From: Flavobacteriales bacterium
GTDB taxonomy: Bacteria; Bacteroidota; Bacteroidia; Flavobacteriales; Schleiferiaceae
Assembly: GCA_012269745.1 (NCBI GenBank)
Contig: JAAXJR010000026.1
Location: forward strand, 11,067 to 64,423
Direction of reading: 5' to 3'
Length of the DNA stretch: 53,357 nucleotides
A program made the translations under genes and the position numbers. Positions 3,362 to 31,023 of this stretch are shown here, piece by piece; position 1 is the stretch's first letter; each line of letters opens with the position of its first letter. The notes under the pieces were generated by a model, which was given only the letters and a program-made list of their open reading frames with translations, was not told the DNA's origin and did not search any database.

Positions 3362-3369
3362 TAGTTTTG
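3362..3369 (+). promoter_or_regulatory. Promoter -7 element of pgi
   Basis: TAGTTTTG is a full match to TAnnTTTG and lies 23 bases before the ATG at 3393. It overlaps the in-frame GTG at 3369, which is therefore unlikely to be the start. Confidence 0.75.
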
Positions 3370-3392
3370 TGGCAAATTCAAGATTATCTACG

Positions 3393-5030
3393 ATGCTTAA
3401 AAACCTAAAGCCAACGGACTTAAAAGCCTGGCGCAAGCTTCAGAAGAACTCTATTTACGACAAAAGAACGCTTAAAACTCGTTTCTACGAGGATAGCGAG
3501 CGTTTCAATAAATACCACATCAAGTGGGACGGAATTCTCTTTGACTTCTCTAAGAACCACATGGGTAGCGAGACTTTCGCTCTCTTTCAGGAGTTGTTAG
3601 AAGAAGCAGATGTCCGTACTGCCATCAAGCAACAGCAAGGTGGTGAGAAAATCAACGTCACTGAAAACCGTGCTGTTTTGCATACTGCTTTACGTAACAT
3701 GAGCGATGAGCCTATTTACGTAGACGGCGAAGATGTGATGCCTGGTGTTCGTGACTCATGGGCTAAACTAGCCACCTTCTCAAGCGAGGTTCGTTCAGGT
3801 AACTGGAAAGGACATAGCGGCAAGCGCATCACTGATGTCGTAAACATCGGTATCGGCGGCTCTGATCTAGGGCCTAGAATGGTCATCAACGCATTGAAGC
3901 CATTCGTTACAGATGAAATGAACTTCCACTTTGTCGCGAACGTAGACGGTGCGGATCTCCACGAAGTATTAAAGAAAGTAGATGCTGAAACTACCCTGTT
4001 CATCATCGCATCCAAGACTTTTACCACACAAGAGACCATGCAAAACGCTAACAGCGCAAAGCATTGGTTCTTGAATAACGGCGGTAGCCAAGAAGATGTA
4101 GCCAAGCACTTCGTTGCTGTAAGTACAAATGCAGAAGGCGTAGCAGGCTTCGGTATCGATACAGCAAACATGTTCGGTTTCTGGGACTGGGTAGGTGGAC
4201 GCTACAGCGTTTGGTCTGCTATTGGTCTACCAGTAATCTTGGCCATAGGTTTCCAAGGATTCCAAGAATTCTTAAGTGGAGCGCATGCTATGGATAAGCA
4301 CGTTGCTGAGGCAGATTGGAGCGAAAACATCCCAGCGCTTATGGCTATGCTTGGTATTTGGTACCGCAACTTCCACAACGCGCCTTCACATGCCATCCTT
4401 CCTTACGACCAATATCTAGATCGTTTCGCAGCCTACTTCCAGCAGGGAGATATGGAGAGTAACGGAAAATATGTAGACCGTGGAGGTAATCGCGTAAACT
4501 ACCCTACTGGACCAATCATTTGGGGTGAGCCTGGAACCAATGGTCAGCATGCCTTCTACCAATTGATCCATCAAGGTACTGACCTTATTCCTGCAGACTT
4601 TATTGCCGCCAAAAAATGCCAGCACAGTTTGCCTGAGCACCACCCTATTCTATTAGCCAATTTCATTGCTCAGACAGAGGCATTGATGACCGGTAAATCA
4701 AGAATGGATGTAGAGATTGAAATGCGTCAAGCAGGAATTAGCGGTGATGATATCGATAAGATTGCACCGTACCGCGTGTTTGAAGGAAACAGACCTACTA
4801 ACAGTATTGTACTGGATGAATTGAACCCTTACCACCTGGGTCAATTGGTTGCGGCCTACGAACACAAGATATTTATACAAGGATACATCTGGAACATCTA
4901 CTCGTACGATCAGTGGGGAGTAGAGCTAGGAAAAGTTCTTGCGAAAGCAGTACTCAATGAACTCAAAGGCGGTCCTAAACACGACCACGACAGTTCCACT
5001 GCAGCACTAATTGATTATTTGAAAAGCTAA
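3393..5030 (+). CDS. pgi: Glucose-6-phosphate isomerase
   Basis: A 545-residue protein of the long bacterial/eukaryotic Pgi type that interconverts glucose 6-phosphate and fructose 6-phosphate in the cytoplasm. The phosphate-binding segment [11 protein letters not shown], the first family signature [13 protein letters not shown], the catalytic Glu in [12 protein letters not shown] and the second signature [18 protein letters not shown] are all intact. The ATG at 3393 is preferred over the GTG at 3369 because the promoter box covers the latter. The gene ends three bases before the stop of the convergent marR gene, and its terminator appears to lie inside marR (5063-5095). Confidence 0.96.
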
Positions 5031-5033
5031 GAT

Positions 5034-5492
5034 TTAACTACACAAATCTGAACGAAAACAGTCCAGCAGCTCATTGAGTTGTTGGGCTTTTTTTTCGTCC
5101 ATACCTGCGGCCAAAGATTCAACCTCCTCACGTTCCACAAGGTCATTGACAAGCTTGCTTCCTTTTGAGGTCAAATAAATAAAGACAATTCTACGGTCTT
5201 CTTTATCTCTTACCTTTTCCAAAAGATCCATGCTCACCAAGCGATCCACCATTCGAGAGGCATCGCTCATCTTGTCTAGCAAACGCTCACGTATTTCAGA
5301 AGTAGTAGATCCCGTTTCTCCTGCACCACGCACAATGCGAAGTACATTGTACTGCTGCATGGTAAGACCATTTTCTTTGAGGCGTGCAGTGATCTGCTCT
5401 TTCAACCTGTTGGAGGTATATATGAGATTCACAATCAATTTCGACTGTTCAGATTTAAAGCTGCTTTGTTTGATTTCGTCTTCGAGGCGCAT
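5034..5492 (-). CDS. MarR-family transcriptional regulator
   Basis: A 152-residue winged-helix regulator. The dimerisation helices flank a DNA-binding core with the recognition helix region TTSEIRERLLDKMSDASRMV and the wing KVRDKEDRRIVFIYLTSKG, where the DxR pair is characteristic of MarR proteins. Family members are dimers that repress their own gene and nearby genes and let go of DNA when a small ligand binds. The only gene clearly under its promoter is itself; its ligand and other targets are unknown. Inverted repeats overlapping its promoter (5501-5529) are the likely operator. Its 3' part carries, on the other strand, the probable pgi terminator. Confidence 0.92.
   Translation of the reverse strand: MRLEDEIKQSSFKSEQSKLIVNLIYTSNRLKEQITARLKENGLTMQQYNVLRIVRGAGETGSTTSEIRERLLDKMSDASRMVDRLVSMDLLEKVRDKEDRRIVFIYLTSKGSKLVNDLVEREEVESLAAGMDEKKAQQLNELLDCFRSDLCS
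5063..5095 (+). terminator. Probable pgi terminator inside the marR coding sequence
   Basis: On the plus strand CCAGCAGCTC (5063-5072) pairs with GAGTTGTTGG (5076-5085) over ten base pairs including two G-U pairs, with an ATT loop and a run of eight T at 5088-5095. It starts 33 bases after the pgi stop codon. On the minus strand the G-U pairs become A-C mismatches and the T run is absent, so the signal is directional. Confidence 0.65.
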
Positions 5493-23595: not shown

Positions 23596-24948
23596 ATGGC
23601 AAAAAGTAGAAGCATTTTTATCTGTACCAACTGTGGCACCGAACATTCAAAATGGATGGGTCAGTGTCAAGGCTGTAAGGAATGGAACACGCTCGTGGAG
23701 GAGATTCAGTCCAAGAGCAAACCTGATCCACGAGCGTGGAGCGGCGATAACGCTTCGAGTAAGCCATTAAAAATTGATGAAGTAGAGCACACGACCGTGC
23801 AGCGCTTCCCCATTCGCGACGAAGAGTTTTCGAGGGTGTTGGGTGGTGGTATTGTGCCGGGATCTGTGGTTCTTCTTGGCGGTGAGCCCGGTATAGGAAA
23901 GAGCACATTATTGTTGCAAATGGCCCTGAAATTCAGTGGAACTGTTGCCTATATCAGTGGTGAGGAAAGTCCATCGCAGATCAAGCTGAGAGCCGAAAGG
24001 ATAGGTCGTACTGAGAGCGAATTGTTTTTGTTGAGTGAAACAAAGACGGAGGCCATTTTCAACCATTTGAAAAAGATGCGGCCGCACCTTGTAGTGGTAG
24101 ATTCTATTCAGACGCTGCACGTACCGCACGTTGAAAGCACGCCAGGCTCAGTGGCTCAGATTAGAGAGAGCGCTGCAAGCTTTATTCGCTATGCTAAGGA
24201 AACGGGGACACCAGTGCTCTTGATTGGCCATATCAACAAGGAAGGGAGCATTGCAGGTCCAAAGATATTGGAACACATGGTGGACGTTGTTCTCCAGTTT
24301 GAGGGCGACCCTAACCTGTTGTACCGCATCCTTAGGGCACACAAGAACAGATTTGGCTCTACCCATGAGATTGGCTTATATACTATGGAACAGGCTGGTT
24401 TGCAAGGCGTTGCAAACCCTAGTGATTTATTGTTGACCAAACAACACGACGGCCTGAGCGGCAATGCTGTAGCGGTGCTTTTGGAGGGCGTTCGCCCTAT
24501 GTTGTTAGAATTGCAGGCGTTGTGTTCTACTGCCGTTTATGGGACGCCGCAGCGTTCTACAACGGGTTTTGATACGCGCCGATTAAACATGCTCCTAGCT
24601 GTTTTGGAGAAGCGTTGTGGGTTCCGATTGGGACAGAAGGACGTCTTTTTGAACATCACCGGTGGTTTGCGCGTAGACGACCCGGCATTAGACCTAGCCG
24701 TTATTGCGGCTATCCTTAGCTCAAATGCTGACGAGCCTATTTCAGGCAAGGTGTGCTTTGCAGCGGAAGTAGGGCTAACCGGTGAAGTGAGGCCGGTAAC
24801 CAAGGTTGAGCAACGCATTCGAGAAGCAGAAAAGCTTGGCTTTGAACGTATCTATGTAAGCGGTCACCACCAAATAGAAAAATCCCACTACGACATTGCC
24901 ATAGTGGGATTGAAAAGAATTGAAGAATTGGTCCGCGCCCAATTCTAA
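23596..24948 (+). CDS. radA: DNA repair protein RadA
   Basis: A 450-residue RecA-like ATPase of recombinational repair that drives branch migration. The N-terminal zinc finger uses C10, C13, C24 and C27. Walker A is GGEPGIGKST (residues 95-104), the RadA-specific KNRFG motif is in AHKNRFGSTHEIG, and the C-terminal Lon-like domain begins near residue 300. It is the last gene of the panC unit, nine bases after the flippase gene. Near its 3' end the DNA carries a perfect 10-bp inverted repeat that probably ends the convergent OmpA transcript (24881-24911). Confidence 0.96.
   Translation: MAKSRSIFICTNCGTEHSKWMGQCQGCKEWNTLVEEIQSKSKPDPRAWSGDNASSKPLKIDEVEHTTVQRFPIRDEEFSRVLGGGIVPGSVVLLGGEPGIGKSTLLLQMALKFSGTVAYISGEESPSQIKLRAERIGRTESELFLLSETKTEAIFNHLKKMRPHLVVVDSIQTLHVPHVESTPGSVAQIRESAASFIRYAKETGTPVLLIGHINKEGSIAGPKILEHMVDVVLQFEGDPNLLYRILRAHKNRFGSTHEIGLYTMEQAGLQGVANPSDLLLTKQHDGLSGNAVAVLLEGVRPMLLELQALCSTAVYGTPQRSTTGFDTRRLNMLLAVLEKRCGFRLGQKDVFLNITGGLRVDDPALDLAVIAAILSSNADEPISGKVCFAAEVGLTGEVRPVTKVEQRIREAEKLGFERIYVSGHHQIEKSHYDIAIVGLKRIEELVRAQF
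24881..24911 (-). terminator. Probable terminator of the ompA-like unit inside radA
   Basis: Read on the minus strand, AATCCCACTA (24911-24902) pairs perfectly with TAGTGGGATT (24890-24881) around an 11-base loop, and TTT follows directly, giving a five-T run with the stem end. It lies 46 bases after the stop of the OmpA-family gene. The plus strand has no T run after the stem. Confidence 0.6.
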
Positions 24949-24956
24949 TGATCTAC

Positions 24957-25919
24957 TTATTCTCCTGCGGAATCCAAAAGATTTGCAAGCTCAGTTAAAT
25001 CTGGCGTAAGGATAATCTCCGTGCGACGGTTAATGGCTTTGTTGCTCGAAGAGCTGTTCTCAACAAGCGGCACATATTCACCACGACCGGCAGCTGTTAT
25101 TCGCTTTGGATCTAAGCCTGAGTTTTTGGTCAAGATTTTAACCACGTTAGTGGCACGCATCACACTAAGGTCCCAGTTGTCTTTAACCTGACTCTGACCG
25201 CGGTACGGGTCATTGTCCGTATGGCCTTCAACTAAGACACTGATTTCCTCATTTTCAGCCAATACTCGCGCAAGGTTTTCCAAGGCTACCTGACCGTTTG
25301 TAGCAACGTTCCATGAACCTGGTGCAAAAAGCAAGCTGTTTTCAAGACTTACATAAACTTTGCCGTCGCGCATGTTGACGGTAAGTCCCTTGCCTGTAAA
25401 GCCAAGCAATGCATCCGCCACCTTTTGGCGAACGTAGTTCACTGTGCTGTCTTGACGACGGATAACTCCTTCGAGCTCAGCAACACGACGCTGGCCTTTT
25501 TCCAAAGCACGACGCTCGGTGTTCAGGCTGTCCTCTTTCGCTTGAAGACGGCTTTGTATCGTACTAAGCTCGTCCATTAATGCTTTGTTCTCTCTTGCAC
25601 TCGCCGCAATTAAAGTACTGTTGTTGTCTAGCAAGTAATCGTACTGCTTAGATAAACGGTCGTACTTCGTTTGCAAAGCACGTAGCTCGTCAAACTTTGC
25701 AGTAGTATCCTCTTGAAGCTGATTCACCTCACGACGTACCTCACCTAAAGTGCGCTCGAGCTCTGAATTTTCAGCAGCACGCAATTCAGTCTTCTGTCTC
25801 AGCTGATCCGCTTCGTTCGACAGTAGGTCGTATTTTTCTTGTAAGGTCTTATGCACCTTAGTGCTCACACACGAAGTGGTGAGTGCTCCTAGGAGTGCAA
25901 AAATGAATAGCTTCTTCAT
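24957..25919 (-). CDS. OmpA-family lipoprotein with coiled coil
   Basis: A 320-residue envelope protein. A short lipoprotein signal ends LTTSC (Cys17). Residues about 25-165 are a long coiled coil rich in Leu, Glu, Arg and Gln. The C-terminal third is an OmpA domain (VLVEGHTDNDPYRG, then NWDLSVMRATNVVKIL and NRRTEIIL) with the Asp and Arg residues that hold the peptide stem of peptidoglycan. The protein would be lipid-anchored and reach to the cell wall through the coiled coil. It follows the coiled-coil membrane protein by nine bases, so the two are one operon. Confidence 0.9.
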   Translation of the reverse strand: MKKLFIFALLGALTTSCVSTKVHKTLQEKYDLLSNEADQLRQKTELRAAENSELERTLGEVRREVNQLQEDTTAKFDELRALQTKYDRLSKQYDYLLDNNSTLIAASARENKALMDELSTIQSRLQAKEDSLNTERRALEKGQRRVAELEGVIRRQDSTVNYVRQKVADALLGFTGKGLTVNMRDGKVYVSLENSLLFAPGSWNVATNGQVALENLARVLAENEEISVLVEGHTDNDPYRGQSQVKDNWDLSVMRATNVVKILTKNSGLDPKRITAAGRGEYVPLVENSSSSNKAINRRTEIILTPDLTELANLLDSAGE

Positions 25920-25928
25920 GGGATTGGT

Positions 25929-26816
25929 TTATTTCAATTCTACTGCTACAGTACCCAACACATAAGCGTCGGTCATTACTGCTGCAGTGTAAATTCCTGG
26001 CTCTAGTACAACAGGTGCATCAGTAGCTCTGTTCGCTGCGATACAAACATCCATAGCTTCGCCTTGGAAGTTCACCTTAGCCATACCGTTGTAACCGCTG
26101 TTTTCGCCAGCTACTACTGCCATATTCTTTTCAGGTGCATCTACTGCCTTGCCGTTAGGCGCAAACAATTTCACGTACAATGTGCGCTCGCCTGAATCTG
26201 CAATACGGTTCTTAGCAATTGTGATACAAACGTTCACACGATCAGTCTTCTTCGCACGCTTTGTTTTGCGCTCTTTACCACTAGAGGTAATGCGAGCTGC
26301 CGTTGCAGAAGATGCAGCGATAACCAACTGCTTCCCTTTAGCTACCGTATTTGAAAGTGTGCTGTTTTGTCCAGACAAGCTTTGGTTAGCGAGGATGGCA
26401 GAATTTAAGCTATCTGCGACCATCTGCTCACGCAATTTCAATGCTGCGTACGCTTCGTTAGTGCTATCTAGTTTTTCTACCAATTCAGCGTTCTGCTTCT
26501 TCAATCCGCTCAGACGGTAACGGTAGTTTGTTAGTTGTTTCTTGTTATCAACATTCACTGCGTTGATGCTATCAATCAATGCACCCAAACGCGAAGTCTC
26601 TGCTTCGATGAATGAATTTAGACTATCGTTTTCACCAATTTGGCCCATCAAATCTTCCTTCAAACCGCTCAATTCAATGGTCAATTCTTGCTTGTCCAAT
26701 TCTAATGCGTGCTTCTCTTCACTGCGCAAATACAGCAATACACCCAATGCAATTACACCAACAGCCAATAGGCCAATAATCAATCCTGATCTCCCTTTGT
26801 TTCCTTCTGAACTCAT
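25929..26816 (-). CDS. Membrane-anchored coiled-coil protein, unknown function
   Basis: A 295-residue protein with a single N-terminal membrane span (residues about 12-30, GLIIGLLAVGVIALGVLLYL) preceded by a charged start, so the bulk faces the periplasm. Residues about 33-165 form a coiled coil. A basic stretch (KERKTKRAKKTDR) precedes a beta-rich C-terminal domain with two cysteines (NVCITIAKN and MDVCIAAN). No named family is recognised beyond similarity to conserved Bacteroidota proteins. An AGGAG site lies just before the ATG, unusual for this phylum. It heads a unit with the OmpA-family lipoprotein. Confidence 0.75.
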   Translation of the reverse strand: MSSEGNKGRSGLIIGLLAVGVIALGVLLYLRSEEKHALELDKQELTIELSGLKEDLMGQIGENDSLNSFIEAETSRLGALIDSINAVNVDNKKQLTNYRYRLSGLKKQNAELVEKLDSTNEAYAALKLREQMVADSLNSAILANQSLSGQNSTLSNTVAKGKQLVIAASSATAARITSSGKERKTKRAKKTDRVNVCITIAKNRIADSGERTLYVKLFAPNGKAVDAPEKNMAVVAGENSGYNGMAKVNFQGEAMDVCIAANRATDAPVVLEPGIYTAAVMTDAYVLGTVAVELK

Positions 26817-26845
26817 CGCTCCTTTTAATTTATCTTCTAATAAAA

Positions 26846-26853
26846 CGAAACTA
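26846..26853 (-). promoter_or_regulatory. Candidate -7 element of the coiled-coil/ompA unit
   Basis: The minus strand reads TAGTTTCG, one mismatch to TAnnTTTG, 30 bases before the start codon at 26816. Confidence 0.4.
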
Positions 26854-26883
26854 CCTCAATCTCAGCATATCTCTCTTAAATCA

Positions 26884-27567
26884 ATGCTAAGTTTTTTAAC
26901 AAGCCTCGTCGCTCCTAAACATTGCCTTCTTTGCGAAGGCCTCCTACGCCCTGCTGAGCAAAGCGTGTGCCAAATATGTGTAGATGCTCAACCCAGATGT
27001 TCTCCTATCGAATTAGAACGGTTAAAACGAGTAAGTAATACAGCAAATGCAAGCTTTCATGCTCCTCTTATAAACACACCTTCGGTAAGCACCCTTTGCC
27101 ATAGTATGAAGTATGGAGGAAACTTATGGTTAGCGCGACAACTGGGTCGAGAAATAATGGGGCCTTCTTTGAAAGTAATCAACACGCAAACCGTCATTTT
27201 AATTCCTATGCCTATTTCAAAGAAGCGGCTTAGAACAAGAGGGTACAATCAAAGCGAACAGTTGGCTAAAGGATGCCTCACTTTCATTAAAGACCACGGG
27301 ATTAACGCTTTAATATTGCCTGTATTGGAGAAGATTCATGACAGGAAAAGTCAAGTGGAGATGAGTCCTTTTGAGCGATGGACGAACCCGCGAGGGAGCT
27401 TGCGAGTGAGTCAAAAAATAAAGCAGCGCATCCCGCGGGATGCGCTGCTTGTGCTGATCGACGACACCGTGACTACGGGATCGACGTTAATTTGTGCTGC
27501 AGAGGTCATTCGAAAAGAGTTTCCCGAGCAGCCTTTGCATTTGCTCGCACTAGCCTTAGAAGTTTAG
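26884..27567 (+). CDS. comF: ComF-family phosphoribosyltransferase-like protein
   Basis: A 227-residue protein. A zinc-finger-like N-terminus uses C14, C17, C29 and C32, and the C-terminal half is a type I phosphoribosyltransferase fold with the PRPP loop IDDTVTTGST (from residue 192) and the family segment RLRTRGYNQSEQLAKG. ComF proteins take part in natural transformation in several bacteria. The frame is open for 114 codons upstream, but that stretch is antisense to the coiled-coil gene; the ATG at 26884 gives normal family length. Codons 180-189 contain a perfect 30-bp palindrome that likely terminates the convergent gene. The stop overlaps that gene by four bases. Confidence 0.92.
   Translation: MLSFLTSLVAPKHCLLCEGLLRPAEQSVCQICVDAQPRCSPIELERLKRVSNTANASFHAPLINTPSVSTLCHSMKYGGNLWLARQLGREIMGPSLKVINTQTVILIPMPISKKRLRTRGYNQSEQLAKGCLTFIKDHGINALILPVLEKIHDRKSQVEMSPFERWTNPRGSLRVSQKIKQRIPRDALLVLIDDTVTTGSTLICAAEVIRKEFPEQPLHLLALALEV
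27413..27450 (-). terminator. Probable terminator of the 1103-residue gene inside comF
   Basis: Bases 27421-27450 are a perfect 30-bp palindrome (arms AAGCAGCGCATCC and its complement, centre CGCG). On the minus strand it is followed by TATTTTTTG. It lies 114 bases after the stop of the convergent gene. The plus strand has no T run after it. Confidence 0.7.
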
Positions 27568-30500
27568 TGGCGAACAATAATAGATTTCTGTACTACGCCT
27601 CTCTCAGTAGCTACTTCTATGAGGTAAGCACCGGCTGCTGCCCCGCTCAAATCATAAGTTTTGCTTAGGACAGAAGAAGTAGGATCGAATTGGTCCACAA
27701 GAATCTCTTGACCCAAGTAGTTGATAATTCGAATACTTACCTCAGCGCTGTGTGAAATCTCACCGTCGATGGTTACCAAACCTTTTGTTGGGTTCGGGTA
27801 GATCATCAAGGCTGTAATTCCAGCGTTGTCTTCAATACCAATAGTACCTACCTGCACATTAAAGGTCTTACTTGCAGTATCACAATCGCTATATACCGTT
27901 AATGTTACTGAGTATGTACCGTTAGCCGTGTACGAGTGTGAAACTGTACCACCAGTACCTGTCGTTGAGTTTCCATCACCGAAAGAAATGTTGAATCCGG
28001 TAGTGTTCGCACTATTCCAGTTAAAGGTCAACGCTGCCGCTGTAGCATTCACGCTATCCACATTGAACTGCGGGTTACCCAATGTAATTGCGGCACACGA
28101 ATCTGTGGTAAACACGTGGTACATAGTCATCGATGTATCGCCAGGAGCACAAGCTTCTTTCACGTAGAAATCGTACGTAGTAGAAGGTGTCAAACCTGTT
28201 AGAGATGCCATCGTAGACGTTGTTGTACCGCTCATCATTGGTCCTGTAGTAGTACCCTGCGCACTGTATTCGTACATGAAGGTTCCTGTACCACCAGTCC
28301 AAGAAATATCGGCAGTGGTCGCCCCGATTGTGGTGTTGGTCAAATTCGATGGCATCGGACAAGAAACTGTCACACAGTTTGCCATCAAAGTATCTTGTGT
28401 ACCCACAGCGAAGTTACCTGTACTCACAGATGTTGACTGTGTACCCGAGAGGTTGGAAAGCACATAGCTTACCTCCGACGGGTAAGAACCCGCAGCACTG
28501 TTCACCACAGTGATTTGTGTTCCGCTACATACTTGGAAATCTACAATAGAAGAATCACCTGTTAAGAATGTAAAGGATTGACCGAAGACTCCGTTGTACA
28601 GTACTTGTACTTCAGCACCGTTCCATCCATCGCCCCATGAATCGTACATGCTCATAGTCCAAGTACACAAATCTGTAGTATCACAAAGGTTTGTGCAGAA
28701 CGTTAATGGACCCAATGTATCGCTCACACCATTCGTACCACAGTTAGCGATCACGAATACATCATAACAAGTTGCTGCACTCAATCCAGAAATGGAGAAC
28801 GTATTAGAGGTAGTAGAATCCATATTGCTTGAAACCAAGCCGGTCGCTTGCGCGAACCCAACTGGGCCCCACTCGTACACGTAGGTTCCAGAGCCACCGT
28901 TCTGATCAAAAGTGAAGGTAGCGTCGTTTTTACCTGCCACGTACGTCAAGTTATTTGGCGTCGGACATGCGGTATTACACGATGCAGTGAACTGCGCCAT
29001 TTGAGTACCTAAGGTAGTCGCCGAAGTTGCGCTGTAAGAATCTACCACCGAACCATTGGAAAGTACATTCAAACCAATCTCACTTGGATACGAACCAGCC
29101 GTGCTTACCGCTATAGTAAACGTTTCGCCCGTACATACCATGATGGTTTCGGTGTAAGTAGACCCGGTAGTAAATGCTGAACCCAAAGTGTATTCAATAC
29201 CCCCGGCAGAATTCAAAACCTGTACCTCTGCACCGTTCCATCCATCGCCCCAAGTATCTGTCAATTCAATATCAAACGTACACATGTCGGCCGGTGCACA
29301 CTGCAATGTCTTGAAGGTTGCAGGACCGAAGGCAGGACTAACTGTGCTATCTGCACACATTTGGTAGACATACACATCGTAAGAGGTGTTTGTATCAAGA
29401 CCCGTTAACCAATACGGCGAAGAAGATGCCGTTACAATAGTACCTGTACTCTGTTGGAAATCCGGTACGAATCCCACAGGACCGTACTCTAAGTAGGTTG
29501 CAATACCATTCGCAGTAAAATTAACCTCCGCAGAATCGGCACCTAATGAACCAACGCTAATGGCCGATGGTGGTAAACATTGTGGCGCATCTTTGATAGT
29601 AATTTCATCAAAATAAACCGCAGTATAAGTGTTGGTAGTCGTAGATACGATCGCAATGTGTTGATCGCTCATGTTATAACCAGCACTAGCATCGAAGTAT
29701 ACAGTGTACATGTTCCAAGTAGCACCATTAGGTACACTAATAGTATCCATCGGATTGAAATTGCTCAAGTCTGTCGGACTACTTACAGTACCTACAATAA
29801 CATCATTTCCTGAAGACCAGCCCGTACATGCCATGTAGATGTCCATCTGCTTTGTACCGCTGTCTAAACCGATAATAGCAGGACTGATTAATGCCTCAAC
29901 CGCTGAATCAAAGCTGTTGTAGAGGTAGTACATCTGAGTTCCAGTATGCGGGCTCAAACTGAATGAAGAACCCGTAATGTACCCATATCCAGAAGCACCT
30001 GCATTTTCTTTATAGTACCAACAAGAAGGCGCATTTGGATTAGAGAATCCACCCGTTGAATCTGTATCGAAGCTTTCGTACAACGGTGTGCTTACAGCAG
30101 TACACAACGTCTTCACATAGTAAGGCCCCATGTTCGTGCTGTACCCGTTAGTATCTGCAGTACAATCTGTTTTGATGTAGAAGTCGTAACCTGTATTTGA
30201 GCTCAAACCAGTGATTGTCGCAAACGTATCGTTTACTGTTACCTGCGTTCCCAAACCATTTACAAAGCCAATTGCGCCGTATTCAACAATAAAGGTTGTA
30301 TCGTTAGAATTCCAAGTCAACGTCGCCGATGAATCTGAAGCGGTGATGCTTGCGAAAGTCGGTGCTGGACAAGCCGGTGGTGTAGTTACTGTCACTGTGT
30401 AATCGTGTACCTCGCCGTAAGACATGCTAGAGCAACTTTCGGTAGCTGAAATGGCAGCAGAATAGTTTGAACGAATGCGCATACGGTAAGAGCCTAGCGA

Positions 30501-30875
30501 TACTGTAGAAGGAATGGTGATCGATTCCACATTACCGTTCCACTGGTTCGTTGAAGAAGACCAAAGATGCTCTCCAGCGTCGTCCCAATCGCCGTCGTTG
30601 TTCCAGTCGCCCCAAATAGCAAAGTACTGCGTAGAGTAGTTTGAAGTGAATTCAACTGAAGTAGGCGCCGTCTGCTGGATGTAAATCGTATCAGAAGTTG
30701 CCACGTAGTAATTACCTGTCGAACAGCCAGTAGCTGTATCAGAGAAGGTCCCGATGTAAACATCGTTGATGTCATCACCGTAGGTACAACCCAAGCTGTA
30801 AGTCGGCGAACAGTAAGTCTGTGCATTTGCTCCCAGAGCAAAAACTGACATGAAAAGGAGTAGAAGTTTCTTCAC
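27564..30875 (-). CDS. Large T9SS-secreted multidomain protein (GEVED, FN3, PKD)
   Basis: An 1103-residue exported protein with a signal peptide ending ALGANA. In order: a GEVED domain (residues about 75-170, FAIWGDWNNDGDWDDAG and YGEVHDYTV), a fibronectin type III repeat, a jelly-roll or MAM-like domain (about 260-430, LYESFDTDSTGG to VYFDEITI), a second fibronectin repeat, a module with the motif WGDGWNGAEV (532-633), another fibronectin repeat, a second copy of that module (737-834), another fibronectin repeat, a PKD domain (FNISFGDGNST) and a T9SS type A sorting domain (from about 1010, MIYPNPTKG). No catalytic motif is seen; it is likely an adhesin or scaffold at the surface. Confidence 0.9.
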   Translation of the reverse strand: MKKLLLLFMSVFALGANAQTYCSPTYSLGCTYGDDINDVYIGTFSDTATGCSTGNYYVATSDTIYIQQTAPTSVEFTSNYSTQYFAIWGDWNNDGDWDDAGEHLWSSSTNQWNGNVESITIPSTVSLGSYRMRIRSNYSAAISATESCSSMSYGEVHDYTVTVTTPPACPAPTFASITASDSSATLTWNSNDTTFIVEYGAIGFVNGLGTQVTVNDTFATITGLSSNTGYDFYIKTDCTADTNGYSTNMGPYYVKTLCTAVSTPLYESFDTDSTGGFSNPNAPSCWYYKENAGASGYGYITGSSFSLSPHTGTQMYYLYNSFDSAVEALISPAIIGLDSGTKQMDIYMACTGWSSGNDVIVGTVSSPTDLSNFNPMDTISVPNGATWNMYTVYFDASAGYNMSDQHIAIVSTTTNTYTAVYFDEITIKDAPQCLPPSAISVGSLGADSAEVNFTANGIATYLEYGPVGFVPDFQQSTGTIVTASSSPYWLTGLDTNTSYDVYVYQMCADSTVSPAFGPATFKTLQCAPADMCTFDIELTDTWGDGWNGAEVQVLNSAGGIEYTLGSAFTTGSTYTETIMVCTGETFTIAVSTAGSYPSEIGLNVLSNGSVVDSYSATSATTLGTQMAQFTASCNTACPTPNNLTYVAGKNDATFTFDQNGGSGTYVYEWGPVGFAQATGLVSSNMDSTTSNTFSISGLSAATCYDVFVIANCGTNGVSDTLGPLTFCTNLCDTTDLCTWTMSMYDSWGDGWNGAEVQVLYNGVFGQSFTFLTGDSSIVDFQVCSGTQITVVNSAAGSYPSEVSYVLSNLSGTQSTSVSTGNFAVGTQDTLMANCVTVSCPMPSNLTNTTIGATTADISWTGGTGTFMYEYSAQGTTTGPMMSGTTTSTMASLTGLTPSTTYDFYVKEACAPGDTSMTMYHVFTTDSCAAITLGNPQFNVDSVNATAAALTFNWNSANTTGFNISFGDGNSTTGTGGTVSHSYTANGTYSVTLTVYSDCDTASKTFNVQVGTIGIEDNAGITALMIYPNPTKGLVTIDGEISHSAEVSIRIINYLGQEILVDQFDPTSSVLSKTYDLSGAAAGAYLIEVATERGVVQKSIIVRH
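28615..28637 (-). repeat. DNA copy of the WGDGWNGA module core (second module)
   Basis: These 23 bases, encoding the WGDGWNGA core, are identical to 29230-29252, 615 bases away in the same gene. The surrounding module is duplicated at protein level with more divergence. Confidence 0.7.
29230..29252 (-). repeat. DNA copy of the WGDGWNGA module core (first module)
   Basis: Identical over 23 bases to 28615-28637. Such local identity in two otherwise diverged copies may mark recent exchange between the modules or strong codon constraint. Confidence 0.7.
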
Positions 30876-31023
30876 TAGCGTGATTTTTTAATAACATCCT
30901 AATGTAGTCTATTATTGAACTTCACAACCGAGTTTTTACTCTCATTTAGTCCTTGTTGAAATATCCATGCTTAATTGGCCGTTTCATTGAGTGACATTGC
31001 CATTAAAACATGACCTTTATACC

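Follow-up and report, generated by a model that had tools for sequence, protein, structure and literature searches.

The locus described here raises the question of what a perfect 30-bp palindrome does inside the coding sequence of a comF-like gene, close to the point where that gene meets a convergent neighbor. It lies in a stretch of 53,357 nucleotides (the window, referring to the whole stretch that was analyzed) from an uncultured, marine genus of Bacteroidota. A preliminary description, made from the letters alone, had taken the palindrome for the terminator of the convergent gene and had suggested that the sequence is held for its DNA or RNA shape while still coding for protein. The features concerned are the following:

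26884–27567, plus strand: comF-like phosphoribosyltransferase gene, whose coding sequence contains the hairpin and whose 3′ end shares 4 bp with the T9SS gene.
27564–30875, minus strand: gene of a T9SS-sorted secreted protein (GEVED, fn3, PKD, Por_Secre_tail); the hairpin is its presumed terminator.
27421–27450, minus strand: putative terminator hairpin of the T9SS gene (13-bp stem, CGCG loop) inside comF codons 180–189, KQRIPRDALL.
27412–27420, minus strand: T-tract TATTTTTTG directly after the stem, antisense of the comF codons for QKI.

The product of comF is ComF/GntX-like (TIGR00201, E 7.7e-16, which is below the curated cut-off) and contains a typical PRPP motif, LIDDTVTTGS. The T9SS protein comprises 1103 residues and bears a type IX sorting domain (TIGR04183/Por_Secre_tail). 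The stop codons of the two genes overlap by 4 bp; hence, no intergenic space exists between them.

The palindrome is composed of two 15-bp arms, 27421–27435 and 27436–27450, that are 100% complementary and joined without a spacer. Between 26000 and 29000, no second inverted repeat with arms of at least 12 nt at a spacing of up to 60 nt accompanies it, and by our own arithmetic (4^-15 per position) about 5e-5 perfect 15-bp arm pairs are expected per 53 kb of random sequence. With the ATG at 26884 taken as the start, the palindrome encodes residues 180–189 next to the PRPP loop, as had been described, and the GC-rich codons ascribed to it are reflected in a third-position GC content of 0.80 in the hairpin versus 0.41 in the gene. 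The distance of 114 bases from the end of the T9SS gene (27564) is likewise correct. On the minus strand, the palindrome continues as ...TGCTT TATTTTTTG. The plus-strand continuation is GTGCTGATCG, which is devoid of a T-tract, so that the T-tracts on both strands that a bidirectional terminator would carry were not found. Folding of the minus-strand RNA yields a 13-bp stem closed by a 4-nt loop; its energy of −25.8 kcal/mol corresponds to z = −5.7 relative to dinucleotide-shuffled sequences. The hairpin displays the sequence features of an intrinsic terminator, namely a stable GC-rich stem–loop, an adjoining 3′ U-rich tract, a position past the end of a same-strand gene, and stem pairing that is maintained in evolution.

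No Rfam match at gathering score was found within 24000–31000, and the hairpin was rejected as a known structured RNA. A dispersed repeat, such as a REP-like or uptake-signal terminator, was rejected as well, as the core palindrome at up to three mismatches occurs once in the genome and a relaxed pattern twice, the second occurrence being the rpoD terminator (G000:C27:33330-33367, minus strand; L003 1501-1538). The latter shares 84% identity over 38 bp with the comF site, including the AAGCA-CATCC stem and the GCTTTATTTTT tail; unlike the comF hairpin, it sits just after the rpoD stop. In agreement with the earlier statement that the T9SS gene has no other hairpin, no second minus-strand terminator was found within 700 nt. 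A plus-strand terminator serving comF was also considered and rejected, since none follows comF in any locus of the genus that was scanned. With no such terminator, comF transcripts may run from 27567 onward on the plus strand, antisense into the T9SS gene.

Close relatives are represented in public contigs labeled Cryomorphaceae, Flavobacteriales, or Bacteroidetes MAGs, and comF was located in most members of the genus. The order of an ompA-like gene, a second minus-strand gene, comF, and the T9SS gene is constant wherever the stretches reach, and so is the overlap of the comF and T9SS stops. Eighteen intact or 3′-complete comF loci, the window included, were compared. An inverted repeat of 9–15 bp occupies the same codons in 17 of the 18, and 15 reach the minus-strand terminator score at T9SS stop +117 to +121 (scan numbering), among them one with a single stem mismatch (L020). 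Likewise, five to eight T are found among the eight bases directly adjoining the stem in 15/18 loci. Three species of one clade (L010, L012, and L014) have kept a 12-bp stem and lost the T-tract, and a substitute terminator was not found in them within 700 nt. The clade that includes these species also shows a second GC-rich inverted repeat of 10–12 bp deeper in comF, without a T-tract:

L010 1834–1856, L012 1811–1833, L011 1812–1838, and L014 1834–1856: second comF inverted repeat.

Only the window and its nearest three relatives (L005, L006, and L019) have the perfect palindrome; the rest of the genus exhibits a hairpin of 9–13 bp with an imperfect loop. The perfect symmetry is incidental. 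In G004 (L052), comF is a pseudogene with an internal deletion and lacks the hairpin, with the T9SS gene still present; in G010 (L053), comF is decayed and internally deleted, leaving part of a damaged hairpin. Loss of the hairpin under a conserved gene order, which the preliminary description had named as speaking against its proposal, is thus confined to G004 and, in part, to G010, in both of which comF itself has broken down. These two cases and the clade that lacks the T-tract indicate that the site is dispensable.

Whether the stem is kept for its pairing or for the peptide was assessed against synonymous codons drawn from the usage of each gene. Over the ten inner stem positions of 17 sequences, 164/170 pairs are Watson–Crick, compared with 92.0±4.9 in the null and a maximum of 109 in 5000 draws. 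Taken singly, each of the 17 hairpin-bearing loci yields p ≤19/4000 among random synonymous sequences. In the 13 distinct sequences, two-sided changes occur at 7/13 stem pairs, and the covariation score of 0.294 exceeds both that of shuffled sequences (0.133±0.019) and that of slid pairings (≤0.134). When mapped by parsimony onto a tree of the remainder of comF, the stem shows four direct two-sided changes from one Watson–Crick pair to another as well as further changes that restore pairing. The codons of residues 183 and 186 change jointly (ATC/GAT, ATT/AAT, GTC/GAC, and GCC/GGC, meaning I-D, I-N, V-D, and A-G), by which the pairing reaches into the ComF protein sequence. At the level of sequence comparison, these data show that selection acts on the hairpin beyond the needs of the protein. 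Of the proposal that a shape is held while coding, the part that stands is the RNA hairpin with its U-tract, as borne out by the 164/170 pairs and the covariation; the perfect DNA palindrome is not what is held.

The same design is repeated twice more in the window:

24881–24911, minus strand: putative terminator hairpin of the ompA-like gene in the 3′ end of radA.
24873–24880, minus strand: T-tract of the radA case, TTTCTATT.
3369–5030, plus strand: pgi.
5034–5492, minus strand: MarR-family regulator gene.
5060–5088, plus strand: putative pgi terminator hairpin in the 3′ end of the MarR-family gene, followed by a T-run to 5097.

Across 16 species, the radA hairpin retains 222/224 pairs (synonymous null 145±5), and its codons coincide, within a shift of two codons, with the peak of synonymous conservation along the gene (0.88 versus a mean of 0.47). 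The DNA at 24873–24911 (minus strand), in the last radA codons, is nearly invariant across the genus. No such hairpin was found within the radA coding sequence in the other genera examined, including at least one locus (L132) whose convergent neighbor is 4 bp away. The pgi terminator in the MarR-family gene is retained in 20 loci of the genus, and 221/228 pairs are kept in the 19 loci tested (null 162±5). In one clade, its T-tract is weaker.

For the genome at large, rates were derived from 534 kb, comprising two samples of stretches and the window; the underlying gene set stems from a longest-ORF caller and includes some false ORFs (e.g., L153 14469-14726). Intergenic space after gene ends holds 45 intrinsic terminators at a score of at least 24, typically 20–25 nt past the stop. 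At a score of at least 20, six terminators antisense within coding sequence fall in the 15.4 kb that lie no more than 200 nt beyond the end of a convergent gene, compared with seven in 476 kb elsewhere. This corresponds to a density about 25- to 26-fold higher past convergent ends, with a binomial tail of ~2e-6, or ~2e-5 without the comF case (our own arithmetic). The window accounts for the comF case and two more of the six sites. The first sample contains 34 convergent pairs. Those with a gap of at least 34 bp usually carry a terminator in the gap, mostly a bidirectional one; pairs with smaller gaps have none in the gap and four embedded ones. Most of the tightly spaced convergent pairs sampled lack an embedded terminator. 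Further candidates in the same genome are found at L159 7359-7384 (plus strand), L148 14697-14724 (minus strand), and L059 8154-8182 (minus strand), with the host ORF of the L148 candidate possibly being spurious.

Outside the genus, a comparable hairpin is absent from comF in all 11 loci examined. In these loci, the loop that precedes the PRPP motif usually has one residue fewer and resembles x-L-x-N-K-H-I-L, and in most loci the gene after comF is codirectional or no convergent T9SS gene is present. In L032, a 50-bp gap follows comF and a terminator candidate lies in or near it. Because few outgroups (L033 and L032) have a tight convergent neighbor, the tie to gene order at comF comes mainly from one genus.

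Could such a hairpin arise merely because KQRIPRDALL happens to be encoded by a palindrome? The peptide does allow a stem, since codons for R and A, Q and L, and I and D can be reverse complements, and the synonymous null alone already pairs 54% of the positions. However, the observed pairing lies far above the maximum of that null, the single-sequence values hold in every hairpin-bearing locus, and the linked residue changes keep the pairing; coincidence or protein constraint has next to no probability, and for the genus as a whole it is ruled out by the synonymous randomization. A service to comF itself is conceivable, either as mRNA structure that slows translation before the PRPP-binding loop, which the hairpin adjoins, or as a protein-bound DNA palindrome; the symmetry of the sequence and the fold of its plus strand (−28 kcal/mol) would fit. 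This is nevertheless very improbable given that comF of the other genera examined does without the hairpin and that the flanks are asymmetric, with the T-tract solely on the side that is downstream for the T9SS gene. Moreover, the unrelated radA and MarR-family genes repeat the design with the T-tract always on the strand of the convergent gene. A protein-binding palindrome is also ill-suited to a site at which a pairing pattern is kept rather than a fixed motif, and the rpoD terminator is the sole other site in the genome with this pattern.

The hairpin might instead protect a 3′ end, with transcription stopping further on (by Rho or otherwise) and the stem blocking exonucleases and setting the mature end of the T9SS mRNA. 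The GC-rich 12-bp stem kept without a T-tract in three species speaks for such a role; yet 7–19 of 4000 random synonymous sequences match the stems of these species, whose GC-rich codons render the retention less improbable. As the T-rich bases adjoin the stem in 15/18 loci and the hairpin anatomy matches that of the many intergenic terminators of the genome, a protective role is considered unlikely.

The palindrome is best explained as a unidirectional intrinsic (Rho-independent) terminator of the minus-strand T9SS gene, sited within comF codons since the 4-bp overlap of the convergent genes leaves no intergenic room. Judged from sequence, we assign this reading a probability of roughly 0.87. 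It agrees with the proposal of the preliminary description and draws on the kept pairs, the T-tract on one strand, and the genus-wide gene overlap. Polymerase leaving the T9SS gene would enter comF in antisense, the nascent RNA would fold into the hairpin, and polymerase would stall on the U-tract and release the transcript at about 27412–27418. The resulting 3′ UTR of ~145–150 nt would be antisense to the 3′ end of comF. Transcription of comF would pass the hairpin since its transcript has no U-tract after it, and translating ribosomes would presumably open the same hairpin in the comF mRNA. ComF residues 180–189 may, in turn, be shaped by the needs of the terminator.

Intrinsic terminators between convergent genes, often bidirectional, are described in a passage of PMC7566282 (citing Ju, Li and Liu 2019), and the mapping in Z. 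mobilis reported there covers convergent-gene terminators. The comF site resembles these by its GC-rich stem and U-tract past the stop of a gene that faces another one. In contrast to them, it lies inside the facing coding sequence and has its T-tract in one direction only, and its compensatory changes also modify the protein encoded on the other strand. A review (PMC7154746) treats convergent genes whose 3′ UTRs overlap, or excludon-type antisense overlaps, with the terminator far past the stop. The predicted T9SS mRNA end, overlapping the comF mRNA by ~150 nt, is similar; however, the review passages on this concern overlapping transcripts and describe no conserved terminator within the codons of a neighbor. 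A search confined to the open-licence literature yielded no paper describing conserved terminators within the codons of a facing gene, and priority is uncertain. The anatomy of intrinsic terminators is already known; distinctive are the embedded position and the effect of the compensatory changes on the facing protein.

A broader reading is that the compact genomes of the genus systematically embed unidirectional terminators in convergent coding sequences and that selection on the RNA hairpin dictates residues of the opposing protein. We lean slightly toward it. The residues at issue are the paired swaps of I/V/A with D/N/G in ComF, which keep the base pairing, and the RadA stretch SHYDIAIVG, which is frozen in the genus and absent from other genera. 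One stretch of DNA herein would have two duties, coding for protein and stopping transcription on the opposite strand, and their conflict is visible as compensatory changes that alter residues. In this genome, embedded sites appear at several convergent pairs without an intergenic gap, and terminator searches that skip coding sequences would miss them. Where residues or codons close to the end of a gene are oddly conserved, such as ComF 180–189 and the RadA C terminus, they may reflect the terminator of a neighbor and not the function of the protein.
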